Source: Candidatus Brocadia pituitae
GTDB lineage: Bacteria; Planctomycetota; Brocadiia; Brocadiales; Brocadiaceae
Assembly: GCA_017347445.1 (NCBI GenBank)
Contig: AP021856.1
Location: forward strand, 3,046,613 to 3,110,612
Direction of reading: 5' to 3'
DNA: 64,000 bases
Shown here: positions 3,160-10,159 of the stretch, piece by piece
Numbering within the stretch: position 1 is the stretch's first letter
Layout: each line of letters begins with the position of its first letter
Translations under genes and position numbers: made by a program
Notes under the pieces: model-generated
Databases searched by the model: none
What the model saw: only the letters and a program-made list of their open reading frames with translations
What the model was told of the DNA's origin: nothing

Positions 3160-3317
3160 TGTATGACCCTGCGAGAAGAGCTTATCAAAAGGTAATACTA
3201 TGTCAAGATATACGGAGATGGTTTCATCTGTCTTGAAACATTGCATATTTATTACTTGACACTTACCTGTGAATTTGACAGAATGCCCGACAATTTAAAC
3301 AACACCGAAAGAAAGAC

Positions 3318-3440
3318 ACACGATAAGGGCAAACCCTGAGCGATCCGGGAACGCAAAGGAAAGGGTCTTTAAAACGGACACGGAAGTCCGGAAAGGCTGA
3401 AAAGTCTTTTGAGTACACCGTAAGGAATCTGCTGAAAAGA
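3318..3440 (+). ncRNA. cyclic-di-GMP-I riboswitch (GEMM-like) aptamer
   Basis: The leader contains GGGCAAACC (3327-3335), a stem CCC..GGG capped by a GCGA (GNRA) tetraloop, ACGCAAAG (3350-3357) and GGGTCT, the conserved core of class I c-di-GMP aptamers, where the tetraloop docks into the opposite helix. A second helical region with GGACACGGAAGTCC follows. It sits 110 bases upstream of a terminator and 200 bases before an exported repeat protein, the kind of surface gene these riboswitches control. The exact 3' boundary is approximate; the cyclic-AMP-GMP variant of the class cannot be excluded. Confidence 0.7.
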
Positions 3441-3442
3441 CA

Positions 3443-3498
3443 GCCTTACTGCCGAAGATGTTTCGTAAAAATCTTTGCAGTAGGGCTTTTTTGTTTTT
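3443..3498 (+). terminator. intrinsic terminator, expression platform of the riboswitch
   Basis: GCCTTACTGC (3443-3452) pairs with GCAGTAGGGC (3477-3486) with one G-U, an inner CGAAGAT/ATCTTTG helix extends it, and TTTTTTG follows. It lies between the aptamer and the start codon at 3548, so premature termination is the likely control mode. Confidence 0.75.
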
Positions 3499-3547
3499 AA
3501 CAAATTTTTTCCTGAGAAAAAATTTGAGAGAAAAGGAGATGGGTAAA

Positions 3548-3991
3548 ATGAAGAAGAACACGGTTCTTGTAGTGTCTGCAGCCCTGTTACTGACCATGGT
3601 ATTGGCAAATACGCTTGTGGTAGAGCACGAGCACAAAGGCAAACCTTCGAATGCAGAGGTCATGCAAAAGACCCACAAGCTCCAGATGCCTTTTATCGCC
3701 AATGAGGGGCAGCTTGATGAACGTGTGGCATTTTATGCCAGGACGTTCGGGGGCATGGTGTTTGTCACAAAGGACGGAGAGATTGTCTATTCGTTGCCGG
3801 CAGGCCGGGAGGAAGGGCGCCAGGGGAACAGCGGGGCGGAGGAGCAGGGGAGAAATGCTGTATCGGGGTGGCATGGACAAGCCTTGCTTGTCCGTGCGGC
3901 ATCTGAATTTGCGGCAAATGGATATGTGCCTCTTTTCCGGGCTGATAAAGCCAGTTGCCCCCGGATCGTGTTCTTGCAAAATCACTGTTAG
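3548..3991 (+). pseudogene. secreted SBBP/Vps62-like protein, N-terminal fragment
   Basis: Starts at ATG 3548 (AAAGGAG nine bases upstream). It has a signal peptide ([20 protein letters not shown]) and the N-terminal domain seen in SBBP-repeat proteins ([34 protein letters not shown]). The frame is then led into an inserted 185-bp palindrome-bounded element at 3866 and stops at 3991. Deleting 3866-4050 joins ...NAVS directly to NSNPGVLPAN in frame. The native product would be a large exported, probably surface or extracellular, protein under c-di-GMP control. As it stands this fragment alone would be a 147-aa truncated exported peptide. Confidence 0.75.
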
Positions 3992-4050
3992 CCGCATATC
4001 TCCCCGGGTTGCAAAAAGGCACGGACAAACAGAGTTTGTCCATGCCACCC
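3866..4050. mobile_element. 185-bp palindrome-bounded MITE-like insert
   Basis: The ends are inverted copies: GGGTGGCATGGACAAGC at the left and its near complement at the right, each itself an internal palindrome (GGACAAGC...GCTTGTCC). Length 185 is not divisible by three and causes the frameshift in the host gene; its removal restores the frame exactly. The same end palindrome occurs once more at 51655-51690. No obvious target duplication was found. Confidence 0.6.
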
Positions 4051-6720
4051 AATAGCAATCCCGGTGTTTTGCCTGCCAATTACAATGCAAATATCAAGCC
4101 TGTCATCCAGGCGGATTTGCTGCCTGAACCTTTGAGTTTGTTGAATACCGGCGTGTGTGCCGTCGGTACCATTTCAAAAGGTTTAAATAATGGGGTTCAG
4201 GTTGCAAACTTGAACCCGCAAGGCGGGAATGGGGCGTATAATGCAACCCCAACCACCCCTACAAAAACCGTTGCACTGAAAGAGGAATTTATCGGCGCAA
4301 AGATTTCTGGGATAAAAGGCGAAGACGAGTCTGTAACAAAGGTCAGCTATTTCAAGGGAAACGACCCCTCCAAATGGAAGAACAATATCTCCACGTATGA
4401 ATTGGTAAACCTTGGGGAGATTTATGATGGCATCGAACTGAAATTAAAGGCGCACGGGAATAATGTGGAAAAACTCCTTTACGTAAAACCAGGCGCTGTT
4501 CCAGAGCAGATTAAGATCAGCCTGAGCGACATGCGAGATTGCGGAGTGCAGAATGCGGAGTGCGAAACAGCAAATCCGAAATCCGAATTCCAAAATCTGA
4601 AATTACAAGTAAATGAACACGGCGAGCTTGTGGCGGAGACGGAGCTCGGGCCTGTAAAATTCACCAAACCCATTGCGTATCAGATGATTGATGGGAAGAG
4701 GGTGGAGGTTGCAGTGGACTACATACTGCAAAACACGAAATCCGAAACACGAAACTCGAAACGTCAAAATCCAAAACTTGTGGTGAGCGAAGTCGAACCA
4801 TCCAAAATCCAAGACGTTGAGGCAGAAGTTTCAAATCCGAAATCTAAAATCGCAAATCGTAAATTCGAGTACGGTTTCACCGTCGCCTCCTACGACCGCA
4901 CAAAAGACCTCGTCATCGACCCCCTGCTGGCATCCACGTACCTGGGTGGGTCTGGTGAGGATTATGCCTGGTCTATCGCCCTCGATACAAGTGGAAACGT
5001 ATATGTAACGGGGGTCACTTATTCATCGGACTTTCCGGCCACGAGCGGTGCATATGATACCTCTTTTAGTGGTGGTGGCAAAGTCTTTGTCTCAAAACTG
5101 GGCGGTGGATTAACCAGTCTGCTTGCCTCCACGTTCCTGGGTGGGAATTCTGATGATCGGGGTTATTCTCTCATCCTCGACACAAACGGGAACGTATATG
5201 TAACGGGGCTTGCTGGGCCAAATTTTCCGACCACGAGCGGGGCATATGATACCTCTTTTGATGGTGGTTATGATGTCTTTGTCTCGAAGCTGGATGGTGG
5301 ATTAACCAACCTGCTTGCCTCTACGTTCCTAGGCGGATCTAGTGAGGATTGGGGTTATTCTCTCTGCCTCGATACAAGTGGAAACGTATATGTGACGGGG
5401 TTTACTACGTCAACAGACTTTCCAACCACGGATGGGGCGTATGATACCTCTTTTAATGGTGGTTATGATGTCTTTATCTCGAAGCTGAACAGTGGATTAA
5501 CGAACCTGCTAGCCTCCACGTACCTGGGCGGGTATGATGCTGATATTGGTTATGCTCTCCGCCTCGATACAAGTGGAAACGTGTATGTAACGGGGGTCAC
5601 TTATTCATCGGACTTTCCGGCCACGAGCGGGGCGTATGATACCTCTTGGAATGGTGCTGATGCTGATGTCTTTGTCTCGAAGCTGAACAGTGGATTAACG
5701 AGACTGCTGGCCTCCACGTTCCTGGGCGGGTCTAGTTTTGATGAGGGTTATTCTCTTGCCCTCGATACAAACGAGAACATATATGTGACAGGGTATACTT
5801 ATTCAACCCACTTTCCGATGACGAACGGGGCTTATGATACCAATTATAACGGTGGTGAAATTGATGTCTTTGTCTCGAAGCTGGACGGTAATCTTTCCGC
5901 CTCTGCTGCAACCACACCTACACCCACCCCGTCTCCATCGCCATCACCGACGCCGACAATAACCCCAGAAGTAGATCCTCTTCTTGAAAAATACGCACCG
6001 ATTTTATATATGCACTCGAAGGAGCGTTTTCATCCCACAAATGTTAAGGTGATGTTAGATAATTCAGAATTATACGAAAAAAAATGTAAAAAAGAGAAGA
6101 AAACTGGTGCTTGTAAAAAATATGAAGGAGCACAAGTTCTTGACAACAAAGATAAAAAGCTTTCTTTAGCGCAATTAATGAATGAATATAATGATAATGT
6201 TTATTATCTTCAGCTAAAAAAGGAAGCAAAGAAAAAGGTGAAAAAGGATTGGAAAGAGCGTCAGACTGTTTACGCTCGTCAAACTAAAGACACTAACGAA
6301 GATGGTAAAGAGAAAACAATTCTGCAATATTGGTTTTTTTATGTTTACAATGATTGGGGTACATCGGATAAATTAGGTAATACACATGAGGGAGACTGGG
6401 AGATGATTCAAATTGAGCTTGGGGAAAATAAACAACCGGAGCGCATTTCCTTTTCCTACCACCATGGAGGAGTAACATTTGGATGGGATGACAAAGATGA
6501 AGATAATAAAGATAAAGTGAGTAAAGATGGCAATCATCCCCATGTGTATGTAACACTGGGCGGACATGGATGTTGGAATTCACCAGATGATCATACCTGG
6601 TATCAGAGAAAAGCTCTTGATTGCTGGAAGTGTACAGACAAGACAGATCGTTACGGGGATGTATTGCACCCAAATTCTATGTCTGACAGTGAAATTAGTG
6701 AAATACAATCTAGTGCTTAA
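3955..6720 (+). pseudogene. SBBP beta-propeller repeat / Vps62-like protein, middle fragment
   Basis: Continuation of the gene starting at 3548, up to the IS630 insertion. The true part begins after the insert at 4051. It shows the conserved pre-repeat domain (VTKVSYFKGNDPSKWK, IYDGIELKLKAHGNNVEKLLY). Five tandem SBBP repeats of about 64-66 aa (about 4925-5905) follow, each with LASTYLGG, LDTSGNVYVTG and DFP.T.GAYDT. Next come a Thr/Pro/Ser linker (5914-5966) and a Vps62-like domain (LLEKYAPILYMHSKERFHP, YWFFYVYNDW, HEGDWEMIQIEL, HPHVYVTLGGHGCW). The last codons run into the TA of the IS630 element. The SBBP region should form a beta-propeller-like extracellular structure; the role of Vps62-like domains in bacteria is unclear. 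Parts of 4515-4870 look like simple AAATCCGAAATC-type repeats. Confidence 0.75.
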
Positions 6721-7790
6721 TTGCATAAATTCATTATAGTATTTCTTAATTGCGAACCCTTAACCTCTCTCTTACGCCACACGAGAGGTTTTGCATTCGG
6801 TTGATAAGCTTCGATGAATGCCTCGATTGCACACCTCAATTGCTCAACACTTTTAAAGCTGGCGTTCTTCAAAGCTTTTCTCGAAAGAATACCAAACCAT
6901 ATTTCCACCTGATTGAGCCAACTTGCAGAAGTAGGTGTAAAATGGAATTTAACATTCGGGTGTGCTGCCAACCATTCCCCGTTTCGCTTGTGAATACAGT
7001 AGTTGTCGAGAATAACATGGATTTCCTTCTTGTCGCTATCCGGTAAATCCAAAAGCAGTTGATCCATGAATGCCAGAAATTCCACCCGTCTTTTTAATTC
7101 TGTTGTTTGCGTATGAATAGTTCCTGTTGCCACGTTGAGAGCTGCAAACAGGTTCAGCGTCCCATGACGCTTATAGGTACTTTTAAGACCATGTACGATT
7201 TTTCTGTTGCTTGTACATACATAGCCTTTGGTTCGCTCTAAAGCTTGTATACTTGGCTTTTCGTCAACAGAAATCACTATGGCATTCTCTGGCGGGGACA
7301 GGTATAAACCTGCGATATCGGCCGCCTTGGTCGTAAATTCCGGGTCAGTACTCACACACCAGCTTCTTTGCCGCGCAAGGCAAATGCCTTCCTTTCGAAG
7401 AATACGCCAGACGGCATCGTCTGATGCCCCCAAATGCTTTGCAAGGGAGGGACCATCCCAACTTGCCTGTCCTTTTGGCGGCTCAAGCTCCAATGTCTTC
7501 AAAACCTGATTGCGAAACTCCTTATCATATTTCGCAGGTTTGCCGGAACGAGGCAGATCGTACAAGCCTTTGATCCCGTTTGTACTAAAGCGACCACGCC
7601 ACTCAATAACAGTTTTCTGGGATGTCCCAAGGGCTGTGGCCACCTTATTCACCTGCTCTCCGGCAAGCAGCATGTTCATGATTTTAGCTCGTCCAACAAG
7701 CCTCCACTCTGCACTCCGACTATTAGCCCATTCGGCAAGAATCTGCCGATCTTGCTCCGAACAACAAGGTATTGGTGCTTTTCTTGGCAT
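6717..7790 (-). CDS. IS630-family DDE transposase
   Basis: A 357-aa transposase. An N-terminal helix-turn-helix region (VNKVATALGTSQKTVIEWRGRF, residues ~50-71) is followed by the homeodomain-like second HTH. The DDE catalytic core follows: VISVDEKPSIQALE (first Asp ~172), VILDNYCIHK (second Asp) and PTSASWLNQVEIWFGIL (Glu), the standard IS630 signatures. AAGGAGG precedes the ATG. The nested IS4-like element is inserted 22 bases upstream of the start codon, so the original promoter has been separated from the gene; expression now depends on readthrough or on the inserted element. The frame itself looks intact. Confidence 0.9.
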   Translation of the reverse strand: MPRKAPIPCCSEQDRQILAEWANSRSAEWRLVGRAKIMNMLLAGEQVNKVATALGTSQKTVIEWRGRFSTNGIKGLYDLPRSGKPAKYDKEFRNQVLKTLELEPPKGQASWDGPSLAKHLGASDDAVWRILRKEGICLARQRSWCVSTDPEFTTKAADIAGLYLSPPENAIVISVDEKPSIQALERTKGYVCTSNRKIVHGLKSTYKRHGTLNLFAALNVATGTIHTQTTELKRRVEFLAFMDQLLLDLPDSDKKEIHVILDNYCIHKRNGEWLAAHPNVKFHFTPTSASWLNQVEIWFGILSRKALKNASFKSVEQLRCAIEAFIEAYQPNAKPLVWRKREVKGSQLRNTIMNLCN

Positions 7791-7812
7791 GGCAGACCTC
7801 CTTCATATAGAA

Positions 7813-9455
7813 AAGACTTTTGCAAAATAGCTTTTGTTGGTGAGGGATGAATGAGTGCAGGCCGGTTGAGCAGGGAATTGTCTGGCCAGGAATGGATTTG
7901 GTGGGTTGTTGGGGAGGGAAAAGTCAAAAAGAACTGGGACTAAGGAAAATGTGGGCGTACCGATTCTGTGGCAGTGCTTTGAAAGGTGAGTTTTACGATA
8001 CTTTAAGCGCTTTGCTTGAGAAGAGGCCGTTGTGAGAATGTTCTAAAACACCTGATTTTGTCAGGTTGTTTGAGAAGGAGAGCCGCAGCCGAGGCAACAA
8101 GGCTCATCGATAAATGGGCAATAGCCATCTGGTTTTGAACAATCTGTAGTTTGTAATGGGTGGTTTGTTCAGCCTCCCGGTCACCAAGACGGCTGAAATA
8201 CTGTTCAACCGCAATGCGGAGCTTATGAGTTTCTTTGAAAAAGTCTGTGTCTCGTGGTACCTGAGAGCGTGCATCATGGGTAATGTCGAGATATTGTGTG
8301 CAGCCGTAGGCCTTGCCTTGAGTCAAGCGGGGATGTTGAATGAGACAACCCTTGGGGTAGTTCGCAGCGACCTTGCTGTCGGCCTTGAGCGGGCATCGGA
8401 ATTTGAGGCGGGTTCGTGGCCCTTCAGTCCATGAACCAGAGGATTTCATCTCCAGCCCGGCATCGCACAAAGGGCATCCATGATGCCCAAGGGTTTTGTC
8501 TGGTTGCCGGTTCCTGGGATTCAGGGGTATGAAGGCCTGGCTTTTCATGGTATTGACGATGAGGTTATAGAGCTCCCGGACATCATAGGCGGCATCAGCG
8601 ATAAAGAGGGCTCCTTTTTTGAATTTGAAAAGCCGTTTGAGTTTTTTGATAAGCTGCACAGCAACCTGGGCGTCGGTGGAGTTGTTTGGCAGGGTTTTCG
8701 TGACGAGCGGGACGCCTTCTTTCGACACAATGACATGAGTACGGTAGCCCCAAAAGAAGATAAAGTTGTCTTTTTTCCCCTGAACTTCCTGATAGGAATA
8801 GTAACCGAGCGTGGCTTGATGATTTCGTTTTGGGCGTTTTTCCTTGTTATGAGTGTTGCGTTTGGGATTCTTGAAGTTGTTTTCTCTGGTGGCGGCCATG
8901 ATGGGTTTTGAGTCTATCAGAAAGGTGTCAAGAGATACGACGCCTGCGGCAATGAGTTGGCGGTTGACTTCGGTGTGGATGTCCTCAAAGAGCGAGGTGG
9001 GTATCTCTTTAATGAATCGGTAAAACTGGCTTTCGTCAGGAAGTGCACCCATTTCGAAACCGCACCGATGAGTAAGTATCGGGTGAGAATCAAGAAATTC
9101 AATAAGCCGGGGAACGGATTTAATCTGTTCGATGTGTTTAATGATGAAAGCCTTGAGCATAGCATGTCGTGAATAGCCAGTACGCCCAACGCCATAGTTT
9201 TTATCGGGAAACTTTGAAAGAGAAAGAGACTGAAAGATCAGGTGATACTTACGGTAGAAGGCTGACATTTCAACGACGGCTTGCAGATTATAAAAAAGAG
9301 ACAACTGGAATTTTTGCATAGAATTTTCCCCCAATAATTGCTTTAAGTCATTTATTTACAAGAAGTTATATTATAGCAAGGCTGGAGGAAAAGACAAGAG
9401 AAAAATAAATATAAATTGCCTGTTAGTAAGAGGTTATGAATTTTGCAGAAGTCTT
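7813..9455. mobile_element. IS4-like insertion sequence with 16-17 bp terminal repeats and target duplication
   Basis: The terminal inverted repeats are AAGACTTTTGCAAAAT at the left and ATTTTGCAGAAGTCTT at the right (one mismatch). The 10-bp TCATATAGAA occurs directly outside both ends (7803-7812 and 9456-9465); because flank and end overlap in sequence the duplication could be read as 8-12 bp. A 10-12 bp duplication fits IS4-type elements. It interrupts the 5' region of the IS630 element. Confidence 0.8.
8003..9334 (-). CDS. DDE transposase of the nested IS4/IS5-like element
   Basis: A 443-aa DDE transposase; the real start is probably the ATG of MQKFQLSLF at 9319. Family features: an N-terminal domain (YSRHAMLKAFIIKHIEQIKSV), an LDTFLIDSKPIMAATRENN segment holding the first Asp (~residue 142), HVIVSKEGVPL, FIADAAYD with the second Asp (~residue 246), and an IAVEQYFSRLGDREAEQTTHYKL segment near 390 with the catalytic Glu and Y/R-rich region. 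It contains a Cys pair (CPLCDAGLE) around residue 305, typical of the insertion domain of this group. The frame is intact and the element ends are well preserved, so this insertion may be recent. Confidence 0.85.
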   Translation of the reverse strand: MGENSMQKFQLSLFYNLQAVVEMSAFYRKYHLIFQSLSLSKFPDKNYGVGRTGYSRHAMLKAFIIKHIEQIKSVPRLIEFLDSHPILTHRCGFEMGALPDESQFYRFIKEIPTSLFEDIHTEVNRQLIAAGVVSLDTFLIDSKPIMAATRENNFKNPKRNTHNKEKRPKRNHQATLGYYSYQEVQGKKDNFIFFWGYRTHVIVSKEGVPLVTKTLPNNSTDAQVAVQLIKKLKRLFKFKKGALFIADAAYDVRELYNLIVNTMKSQAFIPLNPRNRQPDKTLGHHGCPLCDAGLEMKSSGSWTEGPRTRLKFRCPLKADSKVAANYPKGCLIQHPRLTQGKAYGCTQYLDITHDARSQVPRDTDFFKETHKLRIAVEQYFSRLGDREAEQTTHYKLQIVQNQMAIAHLSMSLVASAAALLLKQPDKIRCFRTFSQRPLLKQSA

Positions 9456-9505
9456 TCATATAGAAATAAAAGGAGTCTACTATATTTAACTTATTTTTGC
9501 AAGTA

Positions 9506-10159
9506 TACACTAGTTCTAAAAAATATCCATACGCAATTGAAGAGATGACTTATTGGACCGACAAAGATAAAGAGTGGATATATTGGGAAGGATATTGGGG
9601 ACAACAGACAAAAAGCAAGATGAATGGAAGAGAAGATTTTGGACTCTCTGGTCCACAGAGTCCACCACACATAGATTACATAAATGAAGTTAAGGCAGGT
9701 AAAAAAAGCCAAGAAGGCCGTTGGCATAAACCACTTAAATGGGCAAATGCGCCACTTCCATCAGAATATTATGAGGTATGTAATTCAAAGAATAGTAAGG
9801 TTGTTGCAAATTATTTAGAAAGTAACTCAGGAAAGTATTCAGACTATTGTAATTGGACTAGTGATCTTCTTAGTTGCGATGACGTGTGCTCAAATCTCAG
9901 AATCATCTATTCAGAAGAAGATGTGGTATTTGATGTATTCTCGCTTGATGGAAAAGAGGTAGATTTGAAGATCAGCCGATATAAGAGAACAGGGGAGTTG
10001 TATGAAGTGGAATTTGAAGGACTGGAAATTCCCAAGAACGGCAAGGCGTCTTTCGCATTTTCTCCTGAACAAAATCCCAGTCTTGAAATAGAAATTGATC
10101 ACGACATGGATGGCCTCTTTGATAGTTACAGATTGCCAGATCATTTCGAGATCAAATAG
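9506..10159 (+). pseudogene. SBBP/Vps62-like protein, C-terminal fragment
   Basis: The 3' end of the gene that starts at 3548, cut off by the IS630 insertion; the native frame resumes at TAC-ACT-AGT (9506). The first 110 residues complete the Vps62-like domain (MTYWTDKDKEWIYWEGYWG, GPQSPPHI, RWHKPLKWAN). The remainder (NLRIIYSEEDVVFDVFSLDG ... EIDHDMDGLFDSYRLPDHFEIK) looks like a beta-rich C-terminal domain with an acidic D-x-D-x-D turn. There is no start signal of its own: the first Met lies inside the IS remnant. Removed of all inserts, the gene would be 1213 codons. Confidence 0.75.

Follow-up and report, generated by a model that had tools for sequence, protein, structure and literature searches.

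The leader ahead of a surface-protein gene in the genome of a Candidatus Brocadia, an anammox bacterium, raises the question of whether c-di-GMP could control this gene through RNA and, if so, in which direction. An initial annotation had read the leader as a class I c-di-GMP aptamer followed by a terminator, in a planctomycete host, and had proposed a covariance search as a check. The locus was studied in the window (the whole 64-kb stretch of DNA analysed), in the genome from which the window comes, a single contig of 4.08 Mb, and in related genomes. The planctomycete host was borne out, as genomes assigned by name to Candidatus Brocadia contain the same leader element and the hydrazine synthase family PF18582 is present in the window's own genome. 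Hydrazine synthase alpha was found there twice, at 857532 and 3029406, with identical scores.

The aptamer and its predicted ligand

A cmscan search of the window with 4227 families gave a match to RF01051 (c-di-GMP-I, GEMM-I) at positions 3318–3456 of the plus strand. The match covers the full model (1–87) with 47.8 bits (E = 3e-6), compared with a gathering score of 35 bits, and the proposed covariance search thus returned the class that had been suggested. No other family exceeded its gathering score anywhere in the window. The aptamer core (3327–3357, plus strand) consists of GGGCAAAC, a P2 stem with a GCGA (GNRA) loop, and ACGCAAAG; GGGCAAACCC, the GCGA loop and ACGCAAAG are located where the initial annotation had placed them. 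Five of the six P2 pairs are standard and the remaining one is a U·C mismatch. The P3 loop carries a 65-nt insert, and the 3' strand of the aptamer (3438–3453, plus strand) provides the 3' side of P3 as well as the C with which the ligand is expected to pair. Together, GGGCAAAC, ACGCAAAG and CUGCCG cover the positions that we take to be the ligand contacts G20, A47 (kept in the core) and C92, in Vc2 numbering placed with the RF03167 consensus.

The 183-nt leader folds with −62 kcal/mol (z = −4.8 against 200 shuffles). Minimum-energy folding did not recover the aptamer fold and missed P2, even with the aptamer alone as input; this method models neither the ligand nor tertiary contacts and was left out of the evidence for the aptamer fold. 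Across copies of the element, P2 covaries by double changes, one pair appearing as UA, GC, CG or AU and another as CG or AU. An ordinary terminator that happens to follow aptamer-like letters might give a score as moderate as the 47.8 bits of this lone element, but such a chance resemblance is already contradicted by the E value, the roughly 46 relatives in the genome, the covariation in P2 and the conservation in orthologues described below, and its probability is negligible.

The window copy has a G at the position that discriminates between c-di-GMP and cGAMP, presumably position 20 (placed by Vc2 numbering and the RF03167 consensus), so that its predicted ligand is c-di-GMP, not cGAMP. The same base is a G in 47 of the 49 copies analysed. 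A GEMM-Ib type of aptamer that senses cGAMP instead might be considered, since Geobacter GEMM-I aptamers often bind cGAMP (PMC8835794) and a few copies in the genome have an A at this position (L072, L079 and the partial copy L086); with a G in the window copy and in nearly all the others, however, cGAMP is a very improbable ligand, and GEMM-Ib specificity was rejected for the window copy on the ground of G, not A, at position 20. For the three A-type copies, the predicted ligand is cGAMP or else both dinucleotides. Assignment of the window copy to c-di-GMP-I-GGC (RF03167) was also rejected, because it reads GCAAAG where the model consensus is GCGAAG. Many sister copies obtain their highest score from RF03167, yet none of those examined by sequence has the variant G. 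The c-di-GMP-II family (RF01786) had no match in the window and none in the own genome, where the search was run without a positive control. Considering that the genome has 16 GGDEF and 6 EAL matches, c-di-GMP is presumably both synthesised and degraded in the cell.

Upstream of the aptamer, a consensus scan detected a candidate sigma-70-like promoter on the plus strand (TTGACA-17-CAGAAT, 3256–3284, 10 of 12 matches). Chance alone would yield about one such site in the scanned stretch, so that by the scan this site is at chance level; the segment is identical in a paralogous copy, L088. Some 0.7 kb further upstream, positions 2611–2700 of the plus strand hold a relic of a second aptamer that comprises the 5' half only (pattern match at 2618–2651 with two mismatches; 21.9 bits, under the cut-off), with neither a 3' half nor a terminator seen. 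This relic adjoins an apparent fragment of a HicA-like toxin gene on the minus strand.

The shared strand and the direction of switching

The initial annotation had also placed a strong terminator before the gene, and an intrinsic terminator is indeed found at 3442–3492 of the plus strand, made up of a 17-pair hairpin (3442–3487, −22.5 kcal/mol) and a tract of six U (3487–3492). The hairpin overlaps the 3' strand of the aptamer over 3442–3456, and its 5' arm, AGCCUUACUGC, is this very strand. In the Rfam alignment, GAC..CCUUACU of the aptamer 3' strand falls in P3 and is followed by GCCGAA; the first C of GCCG would be the base that pairs with the ligand. Since the 5' arm of the terminator is the 3' strand of the aptamer, the two structures are mutually exclusive, and their competition for one strand predicts a transcriptional ON switch.

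The 5' arm of a terminator lies within the aptamer 3' strand in 36 of the 44 complete copies in the genome, where 1.7 of 44 would be expected by chance from shuffled downstream sequence and 0.7 from random genomic sequence. Eight of the 44 have no shared terminator, indicating that not every target operates by strand sharing. Two copies, L060 and L120, have UUCC in place of UUAC in the shared strand, and each carries matching changes on the P3 5' strand as well as on the terminator arm.

Alternatively, the ligand could promote termination, as in Clostridioides difficile, whose class I c-di-GMP switches are OFF switches (PMC11477304). Such a mechanism would require a separate antiterminator, and none was seen in the leader, in which terminator and aptamer contest one strand; an OFF switch is thus highly unlikely. 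In the pilM riboswitch, an established ON switch, the terminator likewise sequesters the ligand-pairing C (PMC9262584). For an ON switch, the predicted course of events is as follows. At low c-di-GMP, positions 3442–3452 would pair with 3477–3487 to form the terminator, and transcription would stop before the surface-protein gene. At high c-di-GMP, the bound aptamer would retain the shared strand, including the C that pairs with one ligand guanine, and the terminator would be blocked, allowing the gene to be transcribed. We conclude that the leader very probably works as a transcriptional ON switch of the c-di-GMP-I riboswitch class, and that it belongs to a group of about 46 such elements in the genome.

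The controlled gene and the condition of the window copy

The controlled gene, which starts with the ATG at 3548, had been described as an exported SBBP/Vps62-like gene that is now broken. Both points hold: PF25778, PF06739 and PF06101 match within 3548–6720, and three pieces match residues 20–116, 183–1174 and 1187–1224 of the orthologue from Candidatus Brocadia sp. WS118. The N-terminal piece (3548–3991, plus strand) contains a probable signal peptide, as judged from its sequence, and the start of DUF7948 (PF25778; WS118 residues 20–116). The middle piece lies in another frame (3955–6720, plus strand), comprises DUF7948, five SBBP repeats and a Vps62-like domain (PF25778, PF06739, PF06101), and matches WS118 residues 183–749 and 937–1174 with 65–89% identity. 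Beyond it, the gene is interrupted by two minus-strand transposase-like ORFs (6717–7790 and 8003–9334), and the C-terminal piece past the insertion (9497–10159, plus strand) has 38 residues with 95% identity to WS118 1187–1224. The gene is thus broken twice, first by a change of frame that may be a genuine mutation or an error of assembly, then by 2.8 kb (about 6720–9497) with two transposase genes.

Near-identical copies of the two transposase-like ORFs occur elsewhere in the genome, that of 6717–7790 beside riboswitch L055 (DDE_3) and that of 8003–9334 beside L063. The same kinds of insertion sequences interrupt or follow several riboswitch-controlled genes (6717–9334 in the window; L055, L063 and L070). 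Palindromic repeats of the form GGCATGGACAAGC...GCTTGTCCGTGC and strings like AATCCGAAATCCGAA were also noted within the SBBP coding region, at 3868–4050 and 4545–4870, and the first of these sets (3868–4050) coincides with the reading-frame break.

The arrangement of aptamer and gene is conserved. In WS118, an SBBP orthologue that is intact, with a frame open for at least 1224 residues, is preceded by an aptamer (59.3 bits) and a terminator, as is the orthologue in B. carolinensis (aptamer of 53 bits). Two further SBBP-family genes, L130 and L132, from other genomes of the genus, are directly preceded by an aptamer in the same orientation. The paralogous copy L088 in the own genome is 98.8% identical to the window over the probable promoter and the 5' half, and 94.8% identical over the terminator and the gene start, with a far longer P3-loop insert. 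Most other sampled SBBP genes have no aptamer, so the link between SBBP genes and the riboswitch is recurrent, not universal. The riboswitch at L120 is divergent, lying on the strand opposite its SBBP gene, and for that reason was left out as a controller of that gene.

The window copy itself is imperfect, having the U·C mismatch in P2, a G·A mismatch in P3 and, at about 3350, an A before ACGCAAAG at the site of a nearly invariant G that 46 of 49 copies carry. Compared with the other copies in the genome it scores low, and to judge from these letters the switch may be weakened by the P2 mismatch and the change of the conserved G. Selection on it is likely to have weakened too, considering the broken gene behind the aptamer. 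These imperfections raise the possibility that the switch is decaying, such that it would bind ligand poorly, its terminator would be nearly constitutive and the broken gene would be mostly silent. The two breaks in the downstream gene, the perfect P2 of the B. carolinensis orthologue (CCCGGA/UCCGGG) and the further aptamer relics in the genome are consistent with this, but the ligand-contact bases, the GNRA loop, the terminator and the probable promoter are all intact, the P3 G·A mismatch is found at the same position in several sister copies, and the score remains over the cut-off. Decay is a possibility to be taken seriously, though we consider it the less probable state of the window copy, and an ON switch, perhaps a weakened one, remains our preferred reading.

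The genome-wide set and known systems

By cmscan of individual loci, 46 aptamers in the own genome exceed the Rfam cut-off, and a pattern for the 5' half gave 50 matches compared with none for a reversed-pattern control. The pattern matches beyond the cmscan set are copies with long inserts and relics, including the one in the window at 2618. A whole-genome family search found the window copy only as a short match of 25.9 bits, probably due to its P3 insert; since cmscan of the locus gave 47.8 bits, the whole-genome search must undercount copies with long inserts. Brocadia genomes have 19–56 copies each, other Brocadiaceae 1–28 each, and other planctomycetes mostly at least 0–5 per genome, ten candidates having been scored in each. 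The form with a shared terminator was seen in Brocadia as well as in some of the other Brocadiaceae genera, and canonical aptamers without it were found in some genomes of other genera (for example L021, L027 and L029). For comparison, G. sulfurreducens has 17 GEMM-I riboswitches (PMC8835794), and C. difficile has 12 class I and 4 class II c-di-GMP riboswitches (PMC11477304).

Genes downstream of these riboswitches include those for giant Laminin_G/Big_5 proteins (L050), Big_5 surface proteins (L064), cadherin/Big_9 (L056), PKD/PASTA/RHS (L087), a Kelch propeller (L085), an autotransporter (L068), prepilin-like genes (L052), a glycosyltransferase (L059), a polysaccharide epimerase (L080), a cell-wall amidase (L060), a trypsin-like protease (L073), caspase-PEGA (L084) and sigma-54 activators (L072 and L081). 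A dCache protein with PAS-GGDEF-EAL (L066) is also among the predicted targets, which suggests feedback. With some 46 switches, many of them copies of one cassette, adhesins, pili, polysaccharide enzymes, proteases and regulators would come under c-di-GMP, and their positions before adhesin, pilus, polysaccharide and signalling genes indicate that c-di-GMP probably controls much of the cell surface via RNA. At L050 (6600–6793), two tandem aptamers without a shared terminator precede a gene for a 2091-residue Laminin_G/Big_5 protein, and at L053 a similar gene has a single aptamer; the aptamers at these two loci may act on translation.

The cassette is alike across copies, whereas the upstream flanks (150 nt) are mostly unlike, with 17 similar pairs among about 1200. 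Duplication together with flanking DNA was rejected as the general route of spread on this count, and can explain a few recent copies only. P3 loops range from almost nothing to more than 200 nt, with repeats inside some. Dispersed repeats such as GGGGCGTATTGCAATACGCCC palindromes were seen in P3 loops (L088, 540–780; L041 and L047, near 1560), and the aptamer halves that flank them have apparently not been lost. As far as sequence comparison can tell, this pattern agrees with movement of the cassette from one gene to another.

PilZ, a common protein receptor for c-di-GMP, has four matches in the own genome, and with so few, RNA may be the main c-di-GMP receptor. Our confidence is evenly divided over the broader proposal that in Brocadia a single riboswitch–terminator cassette has spread to about 46 sites, the largest c-di-GMP riboswitch set that we could document for a single genome; that RNA, not protein receptors, is the main c-di-GMP output, controlling granule-forming surface proteins, pili, polysaccharide and the cell's own signalling enzymes; and that the spread of the cassette was not tied to the genes downstream of it, left relics and allowed repeats within the P3 loop.

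Anammox bacteria function as granules and biofilms, and the control of their aggregation is poorly known; the predicted switches could have a role in it in vivo. Some 46 of them, most predicted to be ON switches, provide a direct and testable map of how c-di-GMP would reach the surface proteins of a genus that is uncultured and employed in wastewater treatment, and the dispersed, near-identical cassette offers a case for studying how riboswitches move between genes. The part of a review that deals with c-di-GMP in anammox granular sludge describes a correlation with matrix production and names no c-di-GMP receptors in such sludge (PMC11224092). A literature search, thin on subscription journals, found no paper on such a riboswitch set in Brocadia, Kuenenia or anammox.

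The window element is a member of a known riboswitch class with a known type of platform. It shares with RF01051 all core letters, P2 with its GNRA loop, P3, the G at the discriminating position and a place before a surface-protein gene, which is usual for the class; it differs in the 65-nt P3-loop insert, one mismatch each in P2 and P3 and one changed conserved G, and its genome differs in holding about 46 copies. RF03167 is the best-scoring model for many sister copies, but its consensus has ACGCGAAG where the genome copies have ACGCAAAG, and the window copy is matched by RF01051 only. The pilM riboswitch of Geobacter metallireducens has the same ON geometry, with a terminator that sequesters the ligand-pairing C, but senses cGAMP, whereas the discriminating G of the window copy predicts c-di-GMP (PMC9262584). 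As in the C. difficile regulon, riboswitches would be a main link between c-di-GMP and the adhesins and pili; the C. difficile class I switches are OFF, however, whereas Brocadia has a set about three times larger, of one class and predicted to be ON (PMC11477304). It is the size and uniformity of this set that appear to be undescribed so far.
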